Origin: a virus
IMG/VR virus record: IMGVR_UViG_3300025168_000358
Location: 1-32,171 of that record
DNA length: 32,171 nucleotides
Reading direction: 5' to 3' (one strand)
The notes under the pieces are model-generated. The model saw only the letters and a program-made list of their open reading frames with translations, was not told the DNA's origin and ran no database searches. A program made the position numbers and the translations under genes. Positions 4,310 to 15,727 of the stretch are shown here, one piece after another. Numbering within the stretch: position 1 is the stretch's first letter; each line of letters begins with the position of its first letter.

Positions 4310-5896
4310 TTATATTTTTTGTCCAGTAATCCAATTAATAGTTCTGTTAGCTAAATTGTTTTGTTTTTTTTCTAGTCTTTCACCTAACTTACTTATTTCT
4401 ATTGCTGAGCTTTTAGGAGGTTTTGCCGTAGTAGCAGCATACCAAAGTCCATCAAGTAAGTCGTCGTTTCTTCCTTTGGGGAATTCGAACATTTCATCTA
4501 TAATACCTTCGTGCTCTTTTTTTATAAATAATTTTCTAGAGTTTACTATAGGGCATAGTAGAGCTTCCAACCTATCTTCTTTCTTAATTCCCCCAGGAGG
4601 TCTTATTCCTTGCGAAAGACCTGGAGCTAATTTTCTATCACTTCCAGCTAATTTATTAACATGGTCTTTAATAATTCCTTGGGCACCAACTTTTTCTACA
4701 TTCACTCTCTTAACAGGGTGATATTTTCTAGCTAAGTCAATAATAACTCTAGGCATATCATACAAGGGAGAATGTTCTCTATAGTAATCTACTATGTATA
4801 TATTTCTATCGCTGTCTATAGCTATAGTCATTATAACTTGAAAGTCACTTTTTGCGTGAGTCTCATATGCCAAGTCAACTCCCATATATACATGAACTGG
4901 AATAGCAGACTCATCAATCATCATATAATTAAATCCACCTCTTTCTTCTAAGTGTCCTCTATATTTATTTATTCTATCTATTTTAAACTTTGCAGTCTCT
5001 AAGTCTCTAGCTTCATTCATATACTCTTGAGCAAACTTATGAACAAGTCCCATTTCTGAGAACCTAGATTTAATGTCGTCTAGTTTCTTCTTTGTAAAAT
5101 AGTTTGGCCATAAAGGAACTCCGTCAACCATTGCTTTTTTGTATAACACATTCCAAGCAGATGTTCTTCCTTCTTTTTTGGCAAGTTGATTATTATCATA
5201 AACTCCTTGTAAAAAAGAATCATAATGAACAATAGTACCGATTAACCAAATAGAACCTTCTTGTTCTTTAGAATTTTCTAAAGCTGGTTCTACTGTAGAC
5301 ATAACCCACTCTTTAATTTCTCTTCTTCTATCTGGAGTTTTTGTATTTAACTCAGATTCAAAGTCGTCAAGAATAATATTAGTATATCTAAGACCTAATT
5401 GAGAACGACCACGTAAACGTTGACTTGTACCTTTTGCAATAATTCTATCCCCTCTAGACGTAGTAAATTCTTTTTCAGTCCACTTACTTCCTTTTAAATC
5501 TCCAAAGTAATATCGTAACGCAGGGTTTACATCAATGTGATTTTGAATATACTTAATGTGGTCAATAGCTTGAGATTGTTCTTCAGACACCCAAGCAATA
5601 AATTGTTTTTTTTCTGGGGGAGCAAAATACAACTGATATAATAACGCCGTTTTTGCTAGTGTAGATTTTGCGTGACCACGAGGGAGTATAATACAAGCTC
5701 TTTTTTCATTTCCAAGTAATAAGTCACTTAACTCATATTGATATGGAGCTGGATTAGATTTCATAAAATCTTCAGGTAAAAACATTTGACCAAAAGTGAT
5801 TATGTCTTTTTTTGCTAATTCTAATGCTCTTTCTTTTTGAGATAAGTCTGGAGGAATTATATTAAATATTTCAGGCTTTTTCGAATTCTTTTTCAT
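4310..5896 (-). CDS. terL: Terminase large subunit (DNA-packaging ATPase and nuclease)
   Basis: A 528-residue packaging motor. The ATPase domain has a Walker A variant LPRGHAKST (about 71-79) and a Walker B IILDDFE (174-180). A 'GTSQRLRGRSQLGLRY' arginine-rich segment (156-171) resembles the region ahead of Walker B in other terminases. The C-terminal RNase H-fold nuclease shows GVDLAYE with Asp340, Glu400, and the final acidic motif in GRNDDLLDGLWYA (about 474-486). All catalytic positions I would expect are present. It overlaps the upstream cyclotransferase-like gene by 26 bases, and the portal follows after a gap of about 65 bases. Confidence 0.95.
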   Translation of the reverse strand: MKKNSKKPEIFNIIPPDLSQKERALELAKKDIITFGQMFLPEDFMKSNPAPYQYELSDLLLGNEKRACIILPRGHAKSTLAKTALLYQLYFAPPEKKQFIAWVSEEQSQAIDHIKYIQNHIDVNPALRYYFGDLKGSKWTEKEFTTSRGDRIIAKGTSQRLRGRSQLGLRYTNIILDDFESELNTKTPDRRREIKEWVMSTVEPALENSKEQEGSIWLIGTIVHYDSFLQGVYDNNQLAKKEGRTSAWNVLYKKAMVDGVPLWPNYFTKKKLDDIKSRFSEMGLVHKFAQEYMNEARDLETAKFKIDRINKYRGHLEERGGFNYMMIDESAIPVHVYMGVDLAYETHAKSDFQVIMTIAIDSDRNIYIVDYYREHSPLYDMPRVIIDLARKYHPVKRVNVEKVGAQGIIKDHVNKLAGSDRKLAPGLSQGIRPPGGIKKEDRLEALLCPIVNSRKLFIKKEHEGIIDEMFEFPKGRNDDLLDGLWYAATTAKPPKSSAIEISKLGERLEKKQNNLANRTINWITGQKI

Positions 5897-6266
5897 ATAC
5901 CCTATCTAACATCGTGAACGTTTTTCTTGAATACCAATCCCCGTCTGGAACTTCTGTAAAAGACTTTGAACTTTGCCACAGCTGAGGTCCAGCTACATAT
6001 ATCCAAGCTTTTTCAGTTTTACCACTATTTAATTTTATAGGAACAGTAGTTCTAATATATAACCCAGTATCTATACCTTCGTACTCGTCATACATATTAA
6101 GGTCTTCATCGGTTACATCCATAAGTTCTACGACAGCACCTTTTCCTTTTTCGTTTTTAATTATAGCTGGAAAAGATTGCGTTCCCGGAAACACCAAACT
6201 AAACCCTTCTGCTTTACCAGTGTCTGGTAATCCTCTTCTAAGTGTTCCGTATACAGCTAGTCTCAT
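5871..6266 (-). CDS. Gamma-glutamylcyclotransferase-like protein (AIG2/BtrG fold)
   Basis: A 131-residue, single-domain protein. It opens with the family signature YGTLRRG (residues 6-12), the substrate-binding loop, and contains YDEYEGI (59-65), where Glu63 matches the catalytic acid of AIG2/GGCT proteins. 'Y' and 'W' beta strands at the C-terminal side (AWIYVAG) complete the usual barrel. Enzymes of this family release a gamma-glutamyl group from an amine as 5-oxoproline; BtrG does this in butirosin synthesis. The gene sits between the terminase subunits, overlapping terL by 26 bases and the zinc protein by one. Its place in the packaging cassette is unusual. A functional link to the amidotransferase and amidoligase at 11546-14487 is inference. 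Confidence 0.85.
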   Translation of the reverse strand: MRLAVYGTLRRGLPDTGKAEGFSLVFPGTQSFPAIIKNEKGKGAVVELMDVTDEDLNMYDEYEGIDTGLYIRTTVPIKLNSGKTEKAWIYVAGPQLWQSSKSFTEVPDGDWYSRKTFTMLDRVYEKEFEKA

Positions 6267-7200: not shown

Positions 7201-7452
7201 CTATTTATTTTCTTTGTCGTCAAGTGTTATAATCTTAGACTCTTTTGAATCTAATTCTTTAACAACGAAACCAACATAGTTATTAATAAGAAAGCGTTTT
7301 TCCATAAGGTCTTGCTCTAGCTGCATACAGCCTGAACCTATTTGATTTGCTCTTTGAAATTGTGCTTTTGACTCATCTGACAATTCAGATGCCAAAAACT
7401 CATATTCTTTCTCATTATGAACTATTTTCATTTTTGTTTCTTTATCACTCAT
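7201..7452 (-). CDS. Small conserved-type phage protein of unknown function
   Basis: An 83-residue acidic protein. A short beta-strand start (KIVHNEKEYEF) is followed by 'ELSDESKAQFQRANQIG' and a helix. This 'need-to-feel-Y-then-LS-(D/E)-E-(A/S)-K' arrangement resembles small phage proteins such as DUF6447, but I cannot confirm the family. The stop abuts the terS start region and the start overlaps the upstream gene by one base, so it is part of the late operon. Confidence 0.55.
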   Translation of the reverse strand: MSDKETKMKIVHNEKEYEFLASELSDESKAQFQRANQIGSGCMQLEQDLMEKRFLINNYVGFVVKELDSKESKIITLDDKENK

Positions 7453-7829
7453 TATTTACCCCATTTACGGTTTTTAACTATTAACGCCATCACTGCATAT
7501 ACAGCAATATCTAAGAATGCATCTTCAATTGGCTCGTTTTGAGCCTTAAAGCTATGCTTAGTTGATAGGTTAACTAGTCGGTTTATCTTATCGTTCATCC
7601 TTACTATAATACCTAATAAGGCTATATTGACTTCTTCTTCAGTTTTTAATTGAGTTCCCATGGCAATATTGCCTGGACCGTAGTCAAATTGTTTTTTAGC
7701 AAATGTCATATACATTGTATTTAATATCTTTTGAAAATCGTGCTCTGTTTCAGGAAAATTGTCTTTTATATGTAATACTACATTCTCCGTTACTCCTTCT
7801 ACGTCAGCTGTTGTTTTTTTTTGTTCCAT
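7452..7829 (-). CDS. Nmad1/DUF1599-like (MazG-type fold) nucleotide-associated protein
   Basis: A 125-residue, mostly helical protein. The C-terminal half has the pattern 'FDYGPGNI ... RMNDKINRLVNL ... EPIEDAFLDIAVYAVMAL', with Glu and Asp residues spaced as in all-alpha NTP pyrophosphohydrolases. The YGxxNI, DKxxRL and E-x2-D-x3-D-x2-Y pattern is that of DUF1599, called nucleotide-modification-associated domain 1. The family is thought to act on nucleotides, by analogy with MazG. It overlaps the HNH gene by 26 bases. The biochemical role here is unproven. Confidence 0.6.
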   Translation of the reverse strand: MEQKKTTADVEGVTENVVLHIKDNFPETEHDFQKILNTMYMTFAKKQFDYGPGNIAMGTQLKTEEEVNIALLGIIVRMNDKINRLVNLSTKHSFKAQNEPIEDAFLDIAVYAVMALIVKNRKWGK

Positions 7830-8469
7830 TACTATTCTCCCAGTTTTGTTTCATTGTTATTACTTCTAAGTTATTTATATTACTTGCTTGTTTAATACTG
7901 ATACCACAATCATAACATTGTCTTACTGGTATCTTGTGCTCTATCGTTAAATCATTTTTATTAGGTTTTTTAGGATTCCAAGGATTATCTTTATAAATGT
8001 TATACAATATAAGATTATCTCTTTTTAAAGTACTTTTACTGCTTCTTTGTACCTGTCTCTTATAATCTGAGTAAGGAAGACTGCCATCTTTTTCCATATC
8101 ATAAAACCCTTTGTTTGCATAATAAGTAAACATAGCAACGCTTTTTTTCATATTCGTCTCTTCTGATTGAGGATAATCTAAATTACGTTGAATACAAGCA
8201 CAATTCTTGTTACAATACTTTCTTTTCCTATATTGATATATTGTTAACGGCTTATCTTGCTTGTTTGGATTTATAAATTTTCGGCAGTCTTTTTTCTGGC
8301 AATACCTTAAATCTCTATAGTTTAGCTTCCTAGTAGTAGTATCTCCATTTTGACTATTCCTTATAAAAATATACTTCTTAGAAAAATCAGACTCTTGTTG
8401 AAGCTTCTGAACCTTCTTCATATCGTTACTATTCTTAGCTTTTATTATTTTTTTTGTGATTTCTTCCAC
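7804..8469 (-). CDS. HNH endonuclease with an N-terminal zinc site
   Basis: A 221-residue protein starting at GTG 8469. The C-terminal part has TIEHKIPVRQ (Glu177, His178), then NINNLEVI and QNWENSN with Asn212, matching the H-N-H metal-finger nuclease core. Two Cys, C185 and C188, lie between. The middle has a second zinc-like set, C57, C62, C86 and C90. HNH proteins near terminase genes can stimulate terminase cutting, or may be homing endonucleases. Here the gene is inside the late operon, overlapping both neighbours by about 25 bases, so it is more likely an integral phage gene than a homing insertion. Confidence 0.7.
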   Translation of the reverse strand: MEEITKKIIKAKNSNDMKKVQKLQQESDFSKKYIFIRNSQNGDTTTRKLNYRDLRYCQKKDCRKFINPNKQDKPLTIYQYRKRKYCNKNCACIQRNLDYPQSEETNMKKSVAMFTYYANKGFYDMEKDGSLPYSDYKRQVQRSSKSTLKRDNLILYNIYKDNPWNPKKPNKNDLTIEHKIPVRQCYDCGISIKQASNINNLEVITMKQNWENSNGTKKNNS

Positions 8470-8741
8470 AAGTAATCTCCTACTCCTAATTGAAATAACC
8501 CATTAGATATTGCCTCTATTTGACGTTCGTCGTGCTCTAGACCAGTATTATAAAAAATCGCGTGTAATACCTCGTGTATAAGCGTTTCTTCTATTCTAGA
8601 TGGTGCTATGTCTTCATTTATTAATATAACATTCTCTTTTACTAAGTGTCTACCGTATAATTCTTTGTTTTTATCCTCATGCTCTAACTTCGACGTTAAA
8701 ATTTCGTAAGGATGTCCTCCTATGGTTAATCTTTTCTTCAA
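8445..8741 (-). CDS. Small zinc metallopeptidase (HExxH)
   Basis: A 98-residue protein with HEVLH at residues 56-60 and a downstream Glu76 (QIEAISNGL) in position to be the third zinc ligand, as in gluzincin-like and ImmA/SprT-like peptidases. No signal peptide is present. It starts at TTG 8741 behind GGGAGG. It is the first gene of the leftward unit, directly below the promoter at 8802-8831. The substrate is unknown; similar small phage peptidases are common and uncharacterised. Confidence 0.7.
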   Translation of the reverse strand: MKKRLTIGGHPYEILTSKLEHEDKNKELYGRHLVKENVILINEDIAPSRIEETLIHEVLHAIFYNTGLEHDERQIEAISNGLFQLGVGDYLWKKSQKK

Positions 8742-10374: not shown

Positions 10375-10526
10375 ACACTTTCAAGGGATATCTTCAAGCG
10401 ACAACGACACCATTGTAGTCTAAAGCATAACCACGCAAAGGGGGATTACTGGCTAGATAAAGCTTTATATATATATATAGGATAAAATAAGATACACATT
10501 AGAGGACACACCACAAAACAAACATA
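10375..10526. other. Divergent intergenic region
   Basis: No gene is seen between the two divergent promoters. TAAAGC (10421-10426) can pair with GCTTTA (10462-10467) around a 35-base interior that holds a GGGGG run and GGCTAGATA. A TATA run of about 14 bases follows. This may be a regulator-binding region for both promoters. Confidence 0.35.
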
Positions 10527-10607: not shown

Positions 10608-11069
10608 ATGTCAGAAACAACATATAAAAAGCATTCTAAATGTCCGACGTGTACACAATGGGTAACTAAAGAAGTAGTAATTAAGTCGTTACCTAAGAGC
10701 GTGCAGGTATTATGCGTTCCAGACGATAATGATGATTCCACGTGGTCAGTTACTTTGACAGACTACAGAAATGATGAGACATCAGAATTTGTTGCGACGG
10801 ATATGAAGGACGTAAGATGGTTTATAGAAAATGTCGCAATTAAGCTACATAGACCAGACCATAGATTTAGTGTCGTATTCCCTACTAGTAGATATGATAG
10901 ACATAGTCGCATATCAAAGATAGAATTTAATGAGTGGGCAGACGAAAATTTAAAAGAACGTAAGAACAGAACAGACTGGTATAGTAAGTTAGTCAGTAAA
11001 GCAACTAAAGACGCAGTTCGTGGCTCTAACGTAAGTAACAGACTTGGATATAACGAGGACGTAGAGTAA
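10608..11069 (+). CDS. Unknown early protein with an N-terminal CxxC
   Basis: A 153-residue protein. CPTC at residues 12-15 is the only Cys pair near the start, so a full zinc finger would need dimerisation. The middle (about 50-110) alternates beta strands and helices, and the C-terminus is basic and polar. No family is recognised. It is first in the unit led by the promoter at 10527, followed by another unknown gene 29 bases later. Codon use favours GAC and GTC, as in its neighbours. Confidence 0.65.
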   Translation: MSETTYKKHSKCPTCTQWVTKEVVIKSLPKSVQVLCVPDDNDDSTWSVTLTDYRNDETSEFVATDMKDVRWFIENVAIKLHRPDHRFSVVFPTSRYDRHSRISKIEFNEWADENLKERKNRTDWYSKLVSKATKDAVRGSNVSNRLGYNEDVE

Positions 11070-11098
11070 ATCTATGTCGCAACACAGGAGAGACGCAA

Positions 11099-11356
11099 AT
11101 GTCAGATTACGACAAGCACAATAAAATAATCTCGCTAGATAGAGAGTTCGACGTTATTAGAAATAAGATTATAGGGCTACGTTCAGACGTAAGAATATTC
11201 TATAATAACAATAATATAGCAACGTCAAAGACTTCAGAATTTAGTCAAAGATTAGATAAAGTAATAGAACTTGTTTTAGACGCAGAAAGCGTGTATAAGA
11301 AACAAGTAAGAGAAACACGACAATTAATACAAGAAGTCGTAAATATAACTAAGTAG
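11099..11356 (+). CDS. Small helical protein, unknown
   Basis: An 85-residue, charged, probably all-helical protein (heptad-like Leu, Ile and Val spacing in 'EFSQRLDKVIELVLDAES'). It has no Cys. AGGAG lies at the right distance before the ATG at 11099. A coiled-coil adaptor or regulator is possible. No function can be assigned. Confidence 0.6.
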   Translation: MSDYDKHNKIISLDREFDVIRNKIIGLRSDVRIFYNNNNIATSKTSEFSQRLDKVIELVLDAESVYKKQVRETRQLIQEVVNITK

Positions 11357-11359
11357 ACA

Positions 11360-11545
11360 ATGTATAAACAAGACACATTTCATATGCCGACGTTTTTAGC
11401 AGAAACAAACTGCACCTTTTCGTCGGCGTCTTGTTTGGTCGTACTTAAACAAAGTAAAAATTTAAGATTTTGCGAAAGCAGAAATAGTTTCGTCGCTCGG
11501 TCGAACGACGGAAGTACATTAATACAAAAGAAAGGAAATTAGACT
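11360..11545 (+). ncRNA. Structured leader upstream of the glutamine amidotransferase
   Basis: The 186 bases between two genes fold extensively. GCCGACG (11386-11392) pairs with CGTCGGC (11421-11427), enclosing GCAG/CTGC (11399-11402 with 11410-11413). TTGTTT pairs with AAACAA (11431-11436 with 11447-11452). A TGC-GAAA-GCA hairpin is near 11471-11480. TTTCGTCG (11488-11495) pairs with CGACGGAA (11506-11513). CGTCG at 11421 could instead pair with CGACG at 11506, so the folds are mutually exclusive. GACGGAAGTA (11507-11516) matches, from memory, the conserved core of glutamine riboswitches (glnA/downstream-peptide motifs). A 60-codon frame (11360-11542) spans the region but lacks a binding site and protein-like composition. 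Confidence 0.5.
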
Positions 11546-12634
11546 ATGTGTGGAATATATGGAATAGCCAAATCTCCGACACCTTATACTGCAAGTCAGT
11601 ATAAAGATGTTAGACGCATTCTGAGAGATATTGCAATAGACTCTGAGTCTAGAGGCAGTCACTCGTCTGGAATAGCATCAGTCGGAAATGGAACTACAAT
11701 ACATAAATCCCTACTTGAGTCTTCAAAGTTTGTAGACACTAAACAATATAGTTCTGTCGTTAAATCGTTAAAGACAGATACTAATATTGTATTAGGACAT
11801 ACAAGGTTTGCGACACAAGGTGCAATTACCGTCAAGAATGCTCACCCATTTAAGGTTGGCAACGTCGTCGGAGCACACAATGGTTGCGTCTATAACGTAG
11901 AACAAATGGAAAAGAAACTAGACAAAGTTTGTCCAGTAGATAGCCAGTTGATTTTTAAGTCTATAGACAGGTCAAATACATTAGAAGAAGCCGTCGAACA
12001 TTTCGATAGCGACTTTGCTTTGTGTTTCGTCAAAGACAACTATAATGTCTTACATCTATGTAGAGAGACAAACAGACCTCTACACGTCGCATATGTTCCT
12101 GAACTTAAAACCCTATTCTTTGCGTCTGAAAATGACTTCTTAGAAGATTCATTATGGATTAACGGGGAATACGAACCTAAAGTCTATCAATTAAATAAAA
12201 ATACATTGTATAGCTTTGACGTAAATAAGTTTGAGGATACAGCAAATGCAACTAAGACGGAGTTTAAGTATGAAAGCAGGGTTTACACTTATAATGTAAA
12301 TAAATATCCAGTTAAACATACTATAACGACTGCCAATATTGATAATACATACCTTGATAACGACGCTATTTTAGCAGACTTTTCAGGAATGGAATTTGAT
12401 GATGATGGTTTGCCGTCTAAAGAGTGGTACGAAAGAGAACAAGAAGAGCTTTCGTCTATATATGGTGGCTACGCTTGTAACTGGTATTTTGACGACGTTG
12501 AAATGTCTTGGTACTATTTAACAGACGACAATAGACATATGTCTGAAGATGAAATGGCGAACGACTTTTTTCAAAGTCCACACGCACCAGACTCAGAAGA
12601 CATAATACTAAAAGATAACGAGGACGTAGTGTGA
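11546..12634 (+). CDS. Class-II glutamine amidotransferase domain protein
   Basis: A 362-residue protein. The Met is followed at once by Cys2 (MCGIYGIA), the N-terminal nucleophile of Ntn-type amidotransferases that release ammonia from glutamine. Other family motifs follow in order: ESRGSHSSGIA (34-44), GHTRFATQG (84-92), NAHPF (98-102), AHNGCVYN (110-117, Asn112 and Gly113 for the oxyanion hole) and DSQLIF (132-137). The last 130 residues are acidic, without a sugar-isomerase or synthetase domain, so it must pass ammonia to, or act beside, another protein. It overlaps the amidoligase gene by four bases (GTGA), which implies coupled translation and a joint role. The ribosome binding site is AAAGGA. 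Confidence 0.9.
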   Translation: MCGIYGIAKSPTPYTASQYKDVRRILRDIAIDSESRGSHSSGIASVGNGTTIHKSLLESSKFVDTKQYSSVVKSLKTDTNIVLGHTRFATQGAITVKNAHPFKVGNVVGAHNGCVYNVEQMEKKLDKVCPVDSQLIFKSIDRSNTLEEAVEHFDSDFALCFVKDNYNVLHLCRETNRPLHVAYVPELKTLFFASENDFLEDSLWINGEYEPKVYQLNKNTLYSFDVNKFEDTANATKTEFKYESRVYTYNVNKYPVKHTITTANIDNTYLDNDAILADFSGMEFDDDGLPSKEWYEREQEELSSIYGGYACNWYFDDVEMSWYYLTDDNRHMSEDEMANDFFQSPHAPDSEDIILKDNEDVV

Positions 12635-14487
12635 CTAGGGTAACAATAAGAACTATAGACAATCACGAGGTAGAAAGAGATGAAATACTCTACGACTCTT
12701 GTGGTGGTTGTAGTATGGAAATTACTCCAGACGTCGAATCAGTAGAGAATCAACAAGGGGATACATATTGTAATGGTTGTTACGACGATTATTACTTTAT
12801 TTGTCGCCATTGTGAAGAAGAGTCGCATATGGACGACGTAACTACTATACACAGCGAAGACATCTGTGTTTCGTGTAGAGACAGTTATTACGACACTTGT
12901 CCAGAATGTGACGACTGGTGCTTTGTAGACGATATGCATTATTCGGATAACACAGACTGCGACGTATGTGAGTCTTGTTACGACTATAATGAAGAAAGCG
13001 ACTACAATTCTTCAGACTCTGTGTCTTGGAGTGTAATGAATAATGATTACGTAGCAACAAATACAGACTTCGAGAATCCTAAAGACTCTGGTTATAATAT
13101 GACAGAGACTGGAAACGTAAGGAAGAATATGTTTGATGTGACTTACTCTGAAAGAACAGACTTTAAAGATTCTTTTAGTATGATTAAGTCTAGACGATAT
13201 CAAGGAGTTGAAATAGAATTTAATACTTTCAACGACGTTGATAGAGGCGAATTATTTCAATACTTACACGGAGATATACTTATGTCTAGAACTAATAGGT
13301 TTAGACGAAGCGATTGGTCAGACTATATGAAAAGAATGCTTAACGTAGTTTACGACGGCTCTGTTACTGGTGGAGAACACTCGTACGGGTCGGAAGTTGT
13401 TATGTTCCCTCGCAGGGGTGACGTCTTAATAAAAGACATAGACGTTATAAATAAAGCAATTAAGAAAATGGACGGATACATTAGCCATAAGTGTGGCTAC
13501 CATTTACATATAGACGTAAGAGATTACGACTGGTATCATTTTGCAGTCTTAATAGCTATGACTAAGTTAGTAGAGCCTCATATATTTCGTTGGATGCCGT
13601 CTAGCCGTAGAACGTCTAGGTGGTGTCAACCAGTTACTCAAAACTGGTCTGAGTTTTCAGACATTGGAAGTAGAGAATCTCTAGTCGATTTCTATTACGA
13701 CGGAGACAATTATAGAGACGAAAAATATCACGACAAAAGATATTCAGGTCTTAACTTGCACTCTCACTTTCAAGGTAGACAAGGCGTAGAAATGCGATAT
13801 CATTCTGGTACTTTAAATACCGACAAGATGAAGCATTGGTCTATACTTTGGAGTCAGATTGTAGACAAGTCTTATGAAATAGGTAATGAACTACACGATA
13901 AATATGCTGTATATGGAAGCGACGGAACAGATGATTGGTTTGCAAATACTCCATTCATTAAGTCGTTACAAAACGTAGTCTCAGATGAACTAAAGACCGA
14001 TATATTAAATATAATATCAGTCAATGGAACAAAGAGAGATAGAGTCAACGACATTAAACTAAAACTATCTAGAGATATAAGACGTGAGTTAGGTATAGAC
14101 ATAGAACAGAATCTTCCATATATGGAACTTGACTTAGACAGACTATCTTCATTAGTCGGGATACGTAGTCCTATGGGAATTTACAATAGTCCTACAATGA
14201 CTATGGACAATATGTTCAAAGTCTTTGACTTGCCTAATACGACTAGAGAGTTTTACAGAAATTGGTGTAAGACTAGAGAAAGTTCTTCTTCTTATGACCC
14301 TAACCACGTAGAAAAATGCTACGGCAAGACTACGAGGTTTGTAGAATATCATAAGTTCAGTAACGACTTTAGTACGAAGTCTATGATAGAACATAGACTG
14401 CCTAGAGTAAATAGTCTAAGTAGTATATATCAAGACCTTAGATATAGACTAGAGCCTAGACTTATAAGTGAGTATATTAATGTCTAA
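12631..14487 (+). CDS. Zinc-cluster amidoligase (putative COOH-NH2 ligase)
   Basis: A 618-residue protein starting at GTG. Residues 1-120 carry 14 Cys, including CxxC pairs at 24/27, 47/50, 58/61, 79/82, 90/93 and 110/113, consistent with three LIM- or ribbon-like zinc modules. From about 190 the sequence shows the signature of phage amidoligases (Amidoligase_2, a glutamine-synthetase-like fold): GVEIEFN (192-198), YDGSV with SEVV (241-257), CGYHLHIDVRD (288-298), and VEMRYHSGTLN (386-396). The Glu and His residues would bind Mg-ATP. The family is predicted to join a carboxyl to an amine by an acyl-phosphate; substrate unknown. The remaining 200 residues are helical and probably specific to this protein. 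It is coupled to the amidotransferase. Confidence 0.8.
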   Translation: MTRVTIRTIDNHEVERDEILYDSCGGCSMEITPDVESVENQQGDTYCNGCYDDYYFICRHCEEESHMDDVTTIHSEDICVSCRDSYYDTCPECDDWCFVDDMHYSDNTDCDVCESCYDYNEESDYNSSDSVSWSVMNNDYVATNTDFENPKDSGYNMTETGNVRKNMFDVTYSERTDFKDSFSMIKSRRYQGVEIEFNTFNDVDRGELFQYLHGDILMSRTNRFRRSDWSDYMKRMLNVVYDGSVTGGEHSYGSEVVMFPRRGDVLIKDIDVINKAIKKMDGYISHKCGYHLHIDVRDYDWYHFAVLIAMTKLVEPHIFRWMPSSRRTSRWCQPVTQNWSEFSDIGSRESLVDFYYDGDNYRDEKYHDKRYSGLNLHSHFQGRQGVEMRYHSGTLNTDKMKHWSILWSQIVDKSYEIGNELHDKYAVYGSDGTDDWFANTPFIKSLQNVVSDELKTDILNIISVNGTKRDRVNDIKLKLSRDIRRELGIDIEQNLPYMELDLDRLSSLVGIRSPMGIYNSPTMTMDNMFKVFDLPNTTREFYRNWCKTRESSSSYDPNHVEKCYGKTTRFVEYHKFSNDFSTKSMIEHRLPRVNSLSSIYQDLRYRLEPRLISEYINV

Positions 14488-14585: not shown

Positions 14586-14641
14586 ATATATATATATACT
14601 AGCTAGATAGCTAGAGATAGAAAAAAAATATAAAATAACTA

Positions 14642-15167: not shown

Positions 15168-15462
15168 AGAAGCAATGAGATTACAAGCAGAAGTAGTAAA
15201 TGCGACTGCAAAACTATATCAATTAGGATATAAAATAGAGTGTAAATACATACAAGGTGCTGGTTGGGCAAGTGAGATAGTCAACTATAACAATGGAGAG
15301 AACTTTCAACACGACTATCAAGCTAAGATAGACGCAGAACAAGAAAAGAATAATGACTATGCTATAGACAATATGACTTGCGACGATGAAATGGTAATTG
15401 ACGATGTTGGTCAGATGTATGACCCGACAGAGAGACTAAAAATGGAGGAAGAAAATGAATAA
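15160..15462 (+). CDS. Unknown acidic protein upstream of GroES
   Basis: A 100-residue protein with a helical first half (EAMRLQAEVVNATAKLYQLG) and an acidic second half. One short strand region contains ECKYIQGAGWASE. CGGAGG precedes the ATG. It overlaps its two neighbours by eight bases each, so translation is coupled along the operon. No family recognised. Confidence 0.6.
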   Translation: MSKEAMRLQAEVVNATAKLYQLGYKIECKYIQGAGWASEIVNYNNGENFQHDYQAKIDAEQEKNNDYAIDNMTCDDEMVIDDVGQMYDPTERLKMEEENE

Positions 15463-15727
15463 AATAAAACCACTAGACAATAGATTACTAGTACAAGCAG
15501 ACGCAGTAAAAGAGAAGACGGATAGCGGTATCTTAGTTTCTTCTGAGACTCAAAAGAAACCAAACACTGGAGTAGTACTTGAAGTAGGACCGAAAGTTGA
15601 GACTCTTAAGTCTGGCGACTATATTACATATCCAGATTATGCAGGTACTATTATATATACCGACGGAGAAGAATACTTGATAATGAGAGAAGCTGAAGTC
15701 TTAGCTATACTAGAGGACTCTAAATGA
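15455..15727 (+). CDS. groES: GroES-type co-chaperonin
   Basis: A 90-residue protein that matches Cpn10 over its full length: IKPLDNRLLV at the start, a mobile loop EKTDSGILVSSETQKKP (about 19-35) that contacts GroEL, then GVVLEVGP, LKSGD, 'YAGT' and the end EEYLIMREAEVLAILE. It would cap the host GroEL, as phage T4 gp31 does to help fold the capsid protein. There is no GroEL gene in the window. Its binding site is GGAGG. It sits in the plus-strand unit, not beside the capsid genes. It overlaps a tiny membrane peptide by four bases. Confidence 0.92.
   Translation: MNKIKPLDNRLLVQADAVKEKTDSGILVSSETQKKPNTGVVLEVGPKVETLKSGDYITYPDYAGTIIYTDGEEYLIMREAEVLAILEDSK

Follow-up and report, generated by a model that had tools for sequence, protein, structure and literature searches.

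Glutamine synthetase (GS)-fold amidoligases were reportedly predicted by Iyer and colleagues in 2009 to act together with class-II amidotransferases and AIG2-like cyclotransferases. Amidoligase cassettes are widespread in phages and have repeatedly been annotated as cell-wall modifiers; the papers found cite the 2009 genomic prediction, not an assay, and no assay of any member of a phage cassette was found in open-access papers. The enzyme set of RIO-1-like and LUZ24-like podoviruses is known as a 'peptidoglycan modification cassette' (PMC5498523; PMC11945000). The first of these papers gives the name to the sets of RIO-1/PSA-HP1, LUZ24/UFV-P2/tf and phiEco32-like podoviruses, with reference to Iyer et al. 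2009 and Hardies et al. 2013 (PMC5498523). Action of the podovirus cassette on peptidoglycan is a hypothesis in the literature (PMC5498523), as is its role in superinfection exclusion (PMC5498523; PMC11945000). The gene content of a related podovirus cassette has been described (PMC3890496) and an amidoligase plus amidotransferase has been reported for OM43 phages (PMC10580990). For phage ZRK32, a similar gene set is interpreted as nitrogen-metabolism genes (PMC10945688).

The DNA analysed here is IMG/VR record IMGVR_UViG_3300025168_000358, from a virus of microbes; the whole stretch of 32,171 nt is referred to as the window. Related loci from the first round of IMG/VR scans were reduced to 56 distinct contigs (window included), and a deeper scan added ten contigs to the related group. 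Conservation was determined in 44 distinct amidotransferase (GAT), 37 distinct ligase and 42 distinct gamma-glutamyl cyclotransferase (GGCT) homologues. The curated Pfam cut-offs were 27 bits for GATase_6, 22 bits for Amidoligase_2, 22.8 bits for PF06094 and 22.9 bits for LIM PF00412.

The first gene of the cassette (11546..12634, + strand) encodes a class-II (Ntn) glutamine amidotransferase with the N-terminus MCGIYG. The protein matched GATase_6 (PF13522; E = 2.6e-14, 53.8 bits) and PHROGs family phrog_4736 (E = 1.5e-40), and C2, R87, T90, N112-G113 and D132 were at least 97% conserved in the 44 distinct homologues. The catalytic residues sit at GlmS-type positions, Cys2 being the N-terminal nucleophile of the class, the Arg, Thr and Asp those that bind glutamine and Asn-Gly the oxyanion pair, and PurF and GlmS are relatives of the protein in the PDB. 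Identity with GlmS, PurF or asparagine synthase itself was rejected: only the GAT half is present and the NCBIfam scores lie far under the equivalog cut-offs. The tail of the protein (residues 251-362) is acidic, with a net charge of -22. The gene shares the four bases GTGA (12631..12634, + strand; context GTAGTGTGACTAGG) with the ligase gene behind it. The two genes overlapped or were at most 21 bases apart in 48 of 48 contigs measured, an arrangement from which we infer that their translation may be coupled. The first-pass annotation, made from the window alone, had described a class-II amidotransferase and a ligase overlapping by four bases; its coordinates, reading frames and motifs were exact for both genes, and the profile match and conserved residues bear out the amidotransferase class.

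The second gene (12631..14487, + strand) encodes a 618-residue protein that matched Amidoligase_2 (PF12224) over residues 188-409 (E = 5.9e-21, 75.9 bits) and phrog_2443, 'amidoligase enzyme', in PHROGs (E = 1.8e-22). The Pfam profile also matched 37 of the 37 homologues (best E 4.8e-23). Within the catalytic core, placed at residues 188-412 (13192..13866, + strand) by this match, conserved residues and predicted fold, conservation of E194/E196, D242-G-S, E255, H291-L-H293, R326, R370 and E387/R389 was at least 97% in the 37 distinct homologues. The core is followed by a C-terminal helical extension (residues 413-618; 13867..14487, + strand), delimited by the secondary structure of the model and the lengths of the homologues.

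An AlphaFold2 model of the ligase built from 37 sequences (mean pLDDT 76.8, pTM 0.71) replaced a model from 6 sequences (pLDDT 60); its pLDDT was 82-89 in the zinc modules described below and 80-95 in much of the core. In a Foldseek comparison with the PDB, YbdK (1r8g) ranked first (probability 1.00, E = 1.2e-3), and behind it came glutamine synthetases (probability 0.9-0.98) and, among others, the depupylase Dop; the E-values for the ligase were only about 1e-3 and whole-chain TM-scores were low, the query being multi-domain. As HMG-CoA reductases were also matched at lower probability (about 0.5), we predict with only moderate confidence that the core has a GS-like fold, nearest to YbdK and glutamine synthetase. 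A viral structure library yielded 51 matches at E<=1e-3 (best 4e-13), and the named ones were mainly amidoligases. Profile search and model both agree with the amidoligase assignment that had earlier been made from motifs.

At its N-terminus the ligase has an arm (residues ~1-120; 12631..12990, + strand) of three acidic zinc modules, recognised by conserved cysteines, LIM matches and the model. Six CX2C pairs at residues 24/27, 47/50, 58/61, 79/82, 90/93 and 113/116 form three modules of the pattern CX2C-X17-19-CX2C (residues 24-116) with 7-residue spacers, in good agreement with the 'roughly three zinc ribbons' counted at first pass. All 12 cysteines of the arm were 95-100% conserved in the 37 distinct homologues and the remaining cysteines were not. 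Median dN/dS was 0.15 for the GAT core, 0.18 for the ligase core and 0.26 for the zinc region, which points to clear purifying selection on the zinc region, weaker than on the ligase core. Chance occurrence of the motifs is ruled out by the family E-values, the conservation and the dN/dS.

Comparison of the N-terminus with LIM families, suggested at first pass, gave a divided picture. The best match of the ligase-family profile among PDB sequences was the LIM protein PINCH1 (5e-4) and Foldseek matched the arm to LIM domain 2ehe (probability 1.00). However, the LIM PF00412 profile did not match the window ligase; it matched 5 of the 37 homologues weakly (best E 0.0059), and among the proteins tested only a divergent relative, L210, passed the cut-off (23.7 vs 22.9 bits). 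A LIM unit binds two zincs with a 2-residue link between its fingers; because the arm has CX2C/CX2C repeats and modules 7 residues apart, we regard it as LIM-half-like and not as canonical LIM.

Residues 24-120 of the arm contain 26 D/E against 2 K/R, and the N-terminus is similarly acidic in every ligase homologue. This charge disfavours the arm as a nucleic-acid binder. Docking of the arm onto the GAT tail is likewise unsupported, since both are acidic (-27 and -22, respectively). The arm alone gave no match in a search against named phages, and nothing on point was found in the open-access literature on zinc or LIM modules of phage amidoligases. Five divergent phage contigs (L204, L205, L207, L209 and L210) also fuse zinc modules to Amidoligase_2. 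A GAT adjoins the zinc-ligase in four of these five (L204, L205, L207 and L209), with the ligase preceding the GAT, and the C-terminal extension is mostly missing from L204, L207 and L210 (412-443 aa). The arm is therefore an older phage architecture and not a one-off. The zinc fusion had been singled out as notable; it is indeed less ordinary than the GAT-ligase pair, but it is found in other phages as well. At positions 7292-12024 of L209, ligase, GAT, ligase and GAT genes lie in tandem, one ligase with zinc modules and the other without.

The third enzyme is an AIG2-like gamma-glutamyl(amine) cyclotransferase, encoded on the other strand (5871..6266, - strand). It matched PF06094 (E = 8.2e-16, 59.1 bits) and phrog_2520 (E = 2.6e-15). 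Its YDEYEG stretch contains the putative catalytic Glu63, which was retained in at least 97% of 42 distinct homologues. In a weak PDB match (E = 0.056), this residue falls on the DDFE motif of the AIG2-like domain 1 protein. The genes of the small and large terminase subunits lie on either side, and the 5' end of the latter overlaps with the cyclotransferase gene. At first pass, AIG2-like cyclotransferases had been mentioned as background to the amidoligases; the one encoded in the window had been missed.

A complete GAT gene adjoined that of a zinc-armed ligase in all 59 distinct related viral contigs. Of the 49 distinct contigs of the first set in which the GAT is complete, 48 have the ligase ORF directly behind it; L055, the remaining one, shows the start of the zinc region right after the GAT and then ends. 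The ten contigs from the deeper scan all carried the three genes (10/10), and a search of 16 whole records from the related group detected the cyclotransferase in every one. The pairing expected from the single locus thus extends across related phages, and its precedent and family assignments hold, but such a pair is not unusual among phages. The members do not cluster in one operon: GGCT lies on the strand opposite to GAT, 5.3-7.2 kb away, in all 67 loci (contigs that recur being counted each time). GAT and ligase belong to a rightward unit with DnaB and exonuclease genes, and GGCT to a leftward unit with terminase, portal and major head protein genes.

Several other features of the window were recorded. 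A Cpn10/GroES-type co-chaperonin gene (15455-15727, + strand; PF00166, 2e-21) follows the ligase gene at a distance of roughly 1 kb and has the same orientation; its NCBIfam GroES scores are under the equivalog cut-offs. In the leftward unit, three overlapping genes (7452-8741, - strand) matched DUF1599 ('nucleotide modification associated domain 1', 1.8e-5, just above the cut-off), DUF4406 and an SprT-like/M78 metallopeptidase, the latter two weakly. Short TA runs (tatatatatata) at about 10464-10480 and 14587-14602 flank the gene block 10608-14487. An RNA-family search across the window found none, a promoter scan gave a signal at background level, and PADLOC matched none of the three enzymes to a defence system. 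A cellular origin of the cassette was also considered; a pattern scan of 84,980 bacterial and archaeal genomes, which was of low sensitivity, found no relative.

Outside the group, a cyclotransferase was present in 11 and a GAT in 7 of 12 amidoligase-bearing phage records, and neither was found in any of 3 amidoligase-lacking terminase relatives (a small control set). In a separate clade of 80 contigs (L090-L169), related to a Faecalimonas phage amidoligase, the cyclotransferase gene directly followed the ligase in 79 of 80 contigs, and neither GAT nor zinc arm was found in any of the 80. Ammonia donation is therefore not obligatory for the amidoligase family, and within the lineages sampled the combination of ligase and cyclotransferase is the more general link. 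Judged from these gene neighbourhoods, some of the sampled lineages have added the GAT, and it may be the cyclotransferase with which phage amidoligases are most tightly linked. Of the eight divergent ligase records, seven (L204-L210) showed no cyclotransferase and the eighth (L211) a sub-threshold match only, from which it follows that trimming is not universal.

The reading that we favour, and consider reasonably probable, is that of a minimal phage cassette for writing and erasing amides, whose product would be made early and trimmed late, with a peptide of the host envelope as its likeliest target. The GAT would hydrolyse glutamine via its N-terminal Cys2 and either supply the ammonia or act on the same amide as the ligase. 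The coupled GS-fold amidoligase would activate a carboxylate with ATP and join it to an amine, which may be ammonia from the GAT or belong to a peptide. With its three zinc modules, the acidic arm may recruit a positively charged protein or peptide, as substrate or as docking factor; at first pass it had been conjectured that the modules hold the substrate, perhaps the cell wall or a protein of the phage. Gamma-glutamyl-amine links would be removed or trimmed by the cyclotransferase as 5-oxoproline. As the writer is encoded with replication genes and the eraser with packaging genes, the modification is probably written early and trimmed late, to judge from gene company and strand. The likeliest target would be the stem peptide of peptidoglycan, narrowly ahead of a protein of the host or the phage.

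Such a protein target leads to a different role, in which a protein of host or phage receives glutamyl or some other amino acid from the ligase, in the manner of the pupylation ligase PafA or of RimK, the arm recognises this protein and the cyclotransferase erases the mark. LIM-like modules are protein-interaction modules, the strongly acidic arm would suit a basic protein, and Dop is among the fold matches; GS-fold ligases include Pup ligase and depupylase (PMC2588565). However, the window contains no identifiable substrate protein or tag, and many phages carry related cassettes that have no zinc arm, so that the core chemistry can do without it. On balance we regard protein modification as possible, though clearly less probable than the favoured reading. 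Phage-specific tagging that resembles pupylation, with the arm selecting proteins, ligase and GAT writing a gamma-glutamyl-type amide early and the cyclotransferase of the packaging unit erasing it late, is in our estimate quite unlikely.

It is unlikely, too, that the three enzymes process free gamma-glutamyl compounds (glutamine, glutathione-like peptides or polyamines) and thereby form an auxiliary module of nitrogen or thiol metabolism. GGCT classically works on such free compounds, yet a dedicated zinc arm of ~120 residues is hard to square with an enzyme for free metabolites. The model of the ligase core is nearest to YbdK, a gamma-glutamyl:cysteine ligase according to the title of the structure paper cited in PMC2588565. 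The nitrogen-metabolism interpretation of the ZRK32 set would fit as well, but the available part of that report does not link the growth promotion by ZRK32 to these genes (PMC10945688). The DUF1599 match (1.8e-5) and weak DUF4406 match in the leftward unit could point to addition of an amide-linked group to phage DNA bases. We consider this very improbable: the arm, with its 26 D/E to 2 K/R, does not resemble a DNA-binding module, the proteins scanned included no base hydroxymethylase and nothing else that was clearly for DNA modification, and no link was found between related cassettes and hypermodified DNA.

The split gene layout predicts make-early, trim-late behaviour, and the zinc arm could serve as bait to retrieve the target directly. 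Among described systems, YbdK and the glutamine synthetases share the predicted core fold with the ligase at only about 10% identity; they have no zinc arm and work with other partners. A structural match to the window ligase in BFVD is annotated 'LIM domain containing protein' (A0A6J7X2B6). The divergent zinc-ligases (L204, L205, L207, L209 and L210) share the fusion of tandem CX2C modules to Amidoligase_2, but are only 24-31% identical, have the ligase before the GAT and in most cases a short C-terminus, and are accompanied by no cyclotransferase above the cut-off. Arthrobacter phages Waltz (gp94-96) and Ottawa (gp64-66) carry just the three enzymes of this minimal set, and neither an ATP-grasp nor a second ligase is annotated close by; for Ottawa, the contiguity of the triplet was identified by profile search. 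In both, the three genes are consecutive and in reversed order, and the ligase, of about 325-340 aa, has no zinc arm.

The podovirus cassette resembles that of the window in combining a class-II amidotransferase, an Amidoligase_2 protein and a gamma-glutamyl cyclotransferase in one genome and in having the ligase in the replication or early region. In the window group, by contrast, the ligase bears a zinc arm as well as a C-terminal extension, and the cyclotransferase gene lies within the packaging operon, on the other strand. The second ligase and the ATP-grasp of the podovirus cassette are apparently missing from the window group, within the limited sensitivity of the searches. COOH-NH2 ligase type 2 was found in 0 of 16 group records by family and protein searches, in which 14 family-search controls were silent and the records were fragmentary; an ATP-grasp ligase was found in 0 of 16, where a positive-control phage scored below the cut-off and divergent ATP-grasps could escape. 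The cassette of the window group is reduced to three enzymes in place of five or more, and a zinc arm is built into it; as far as gene content can tell, it is a stripped-down variant of the podovirus set. The enzyme set itself was already known, and what sets it apart here is that the ligase bears a zinc arm and that maker and breaker are encoded in separate units.
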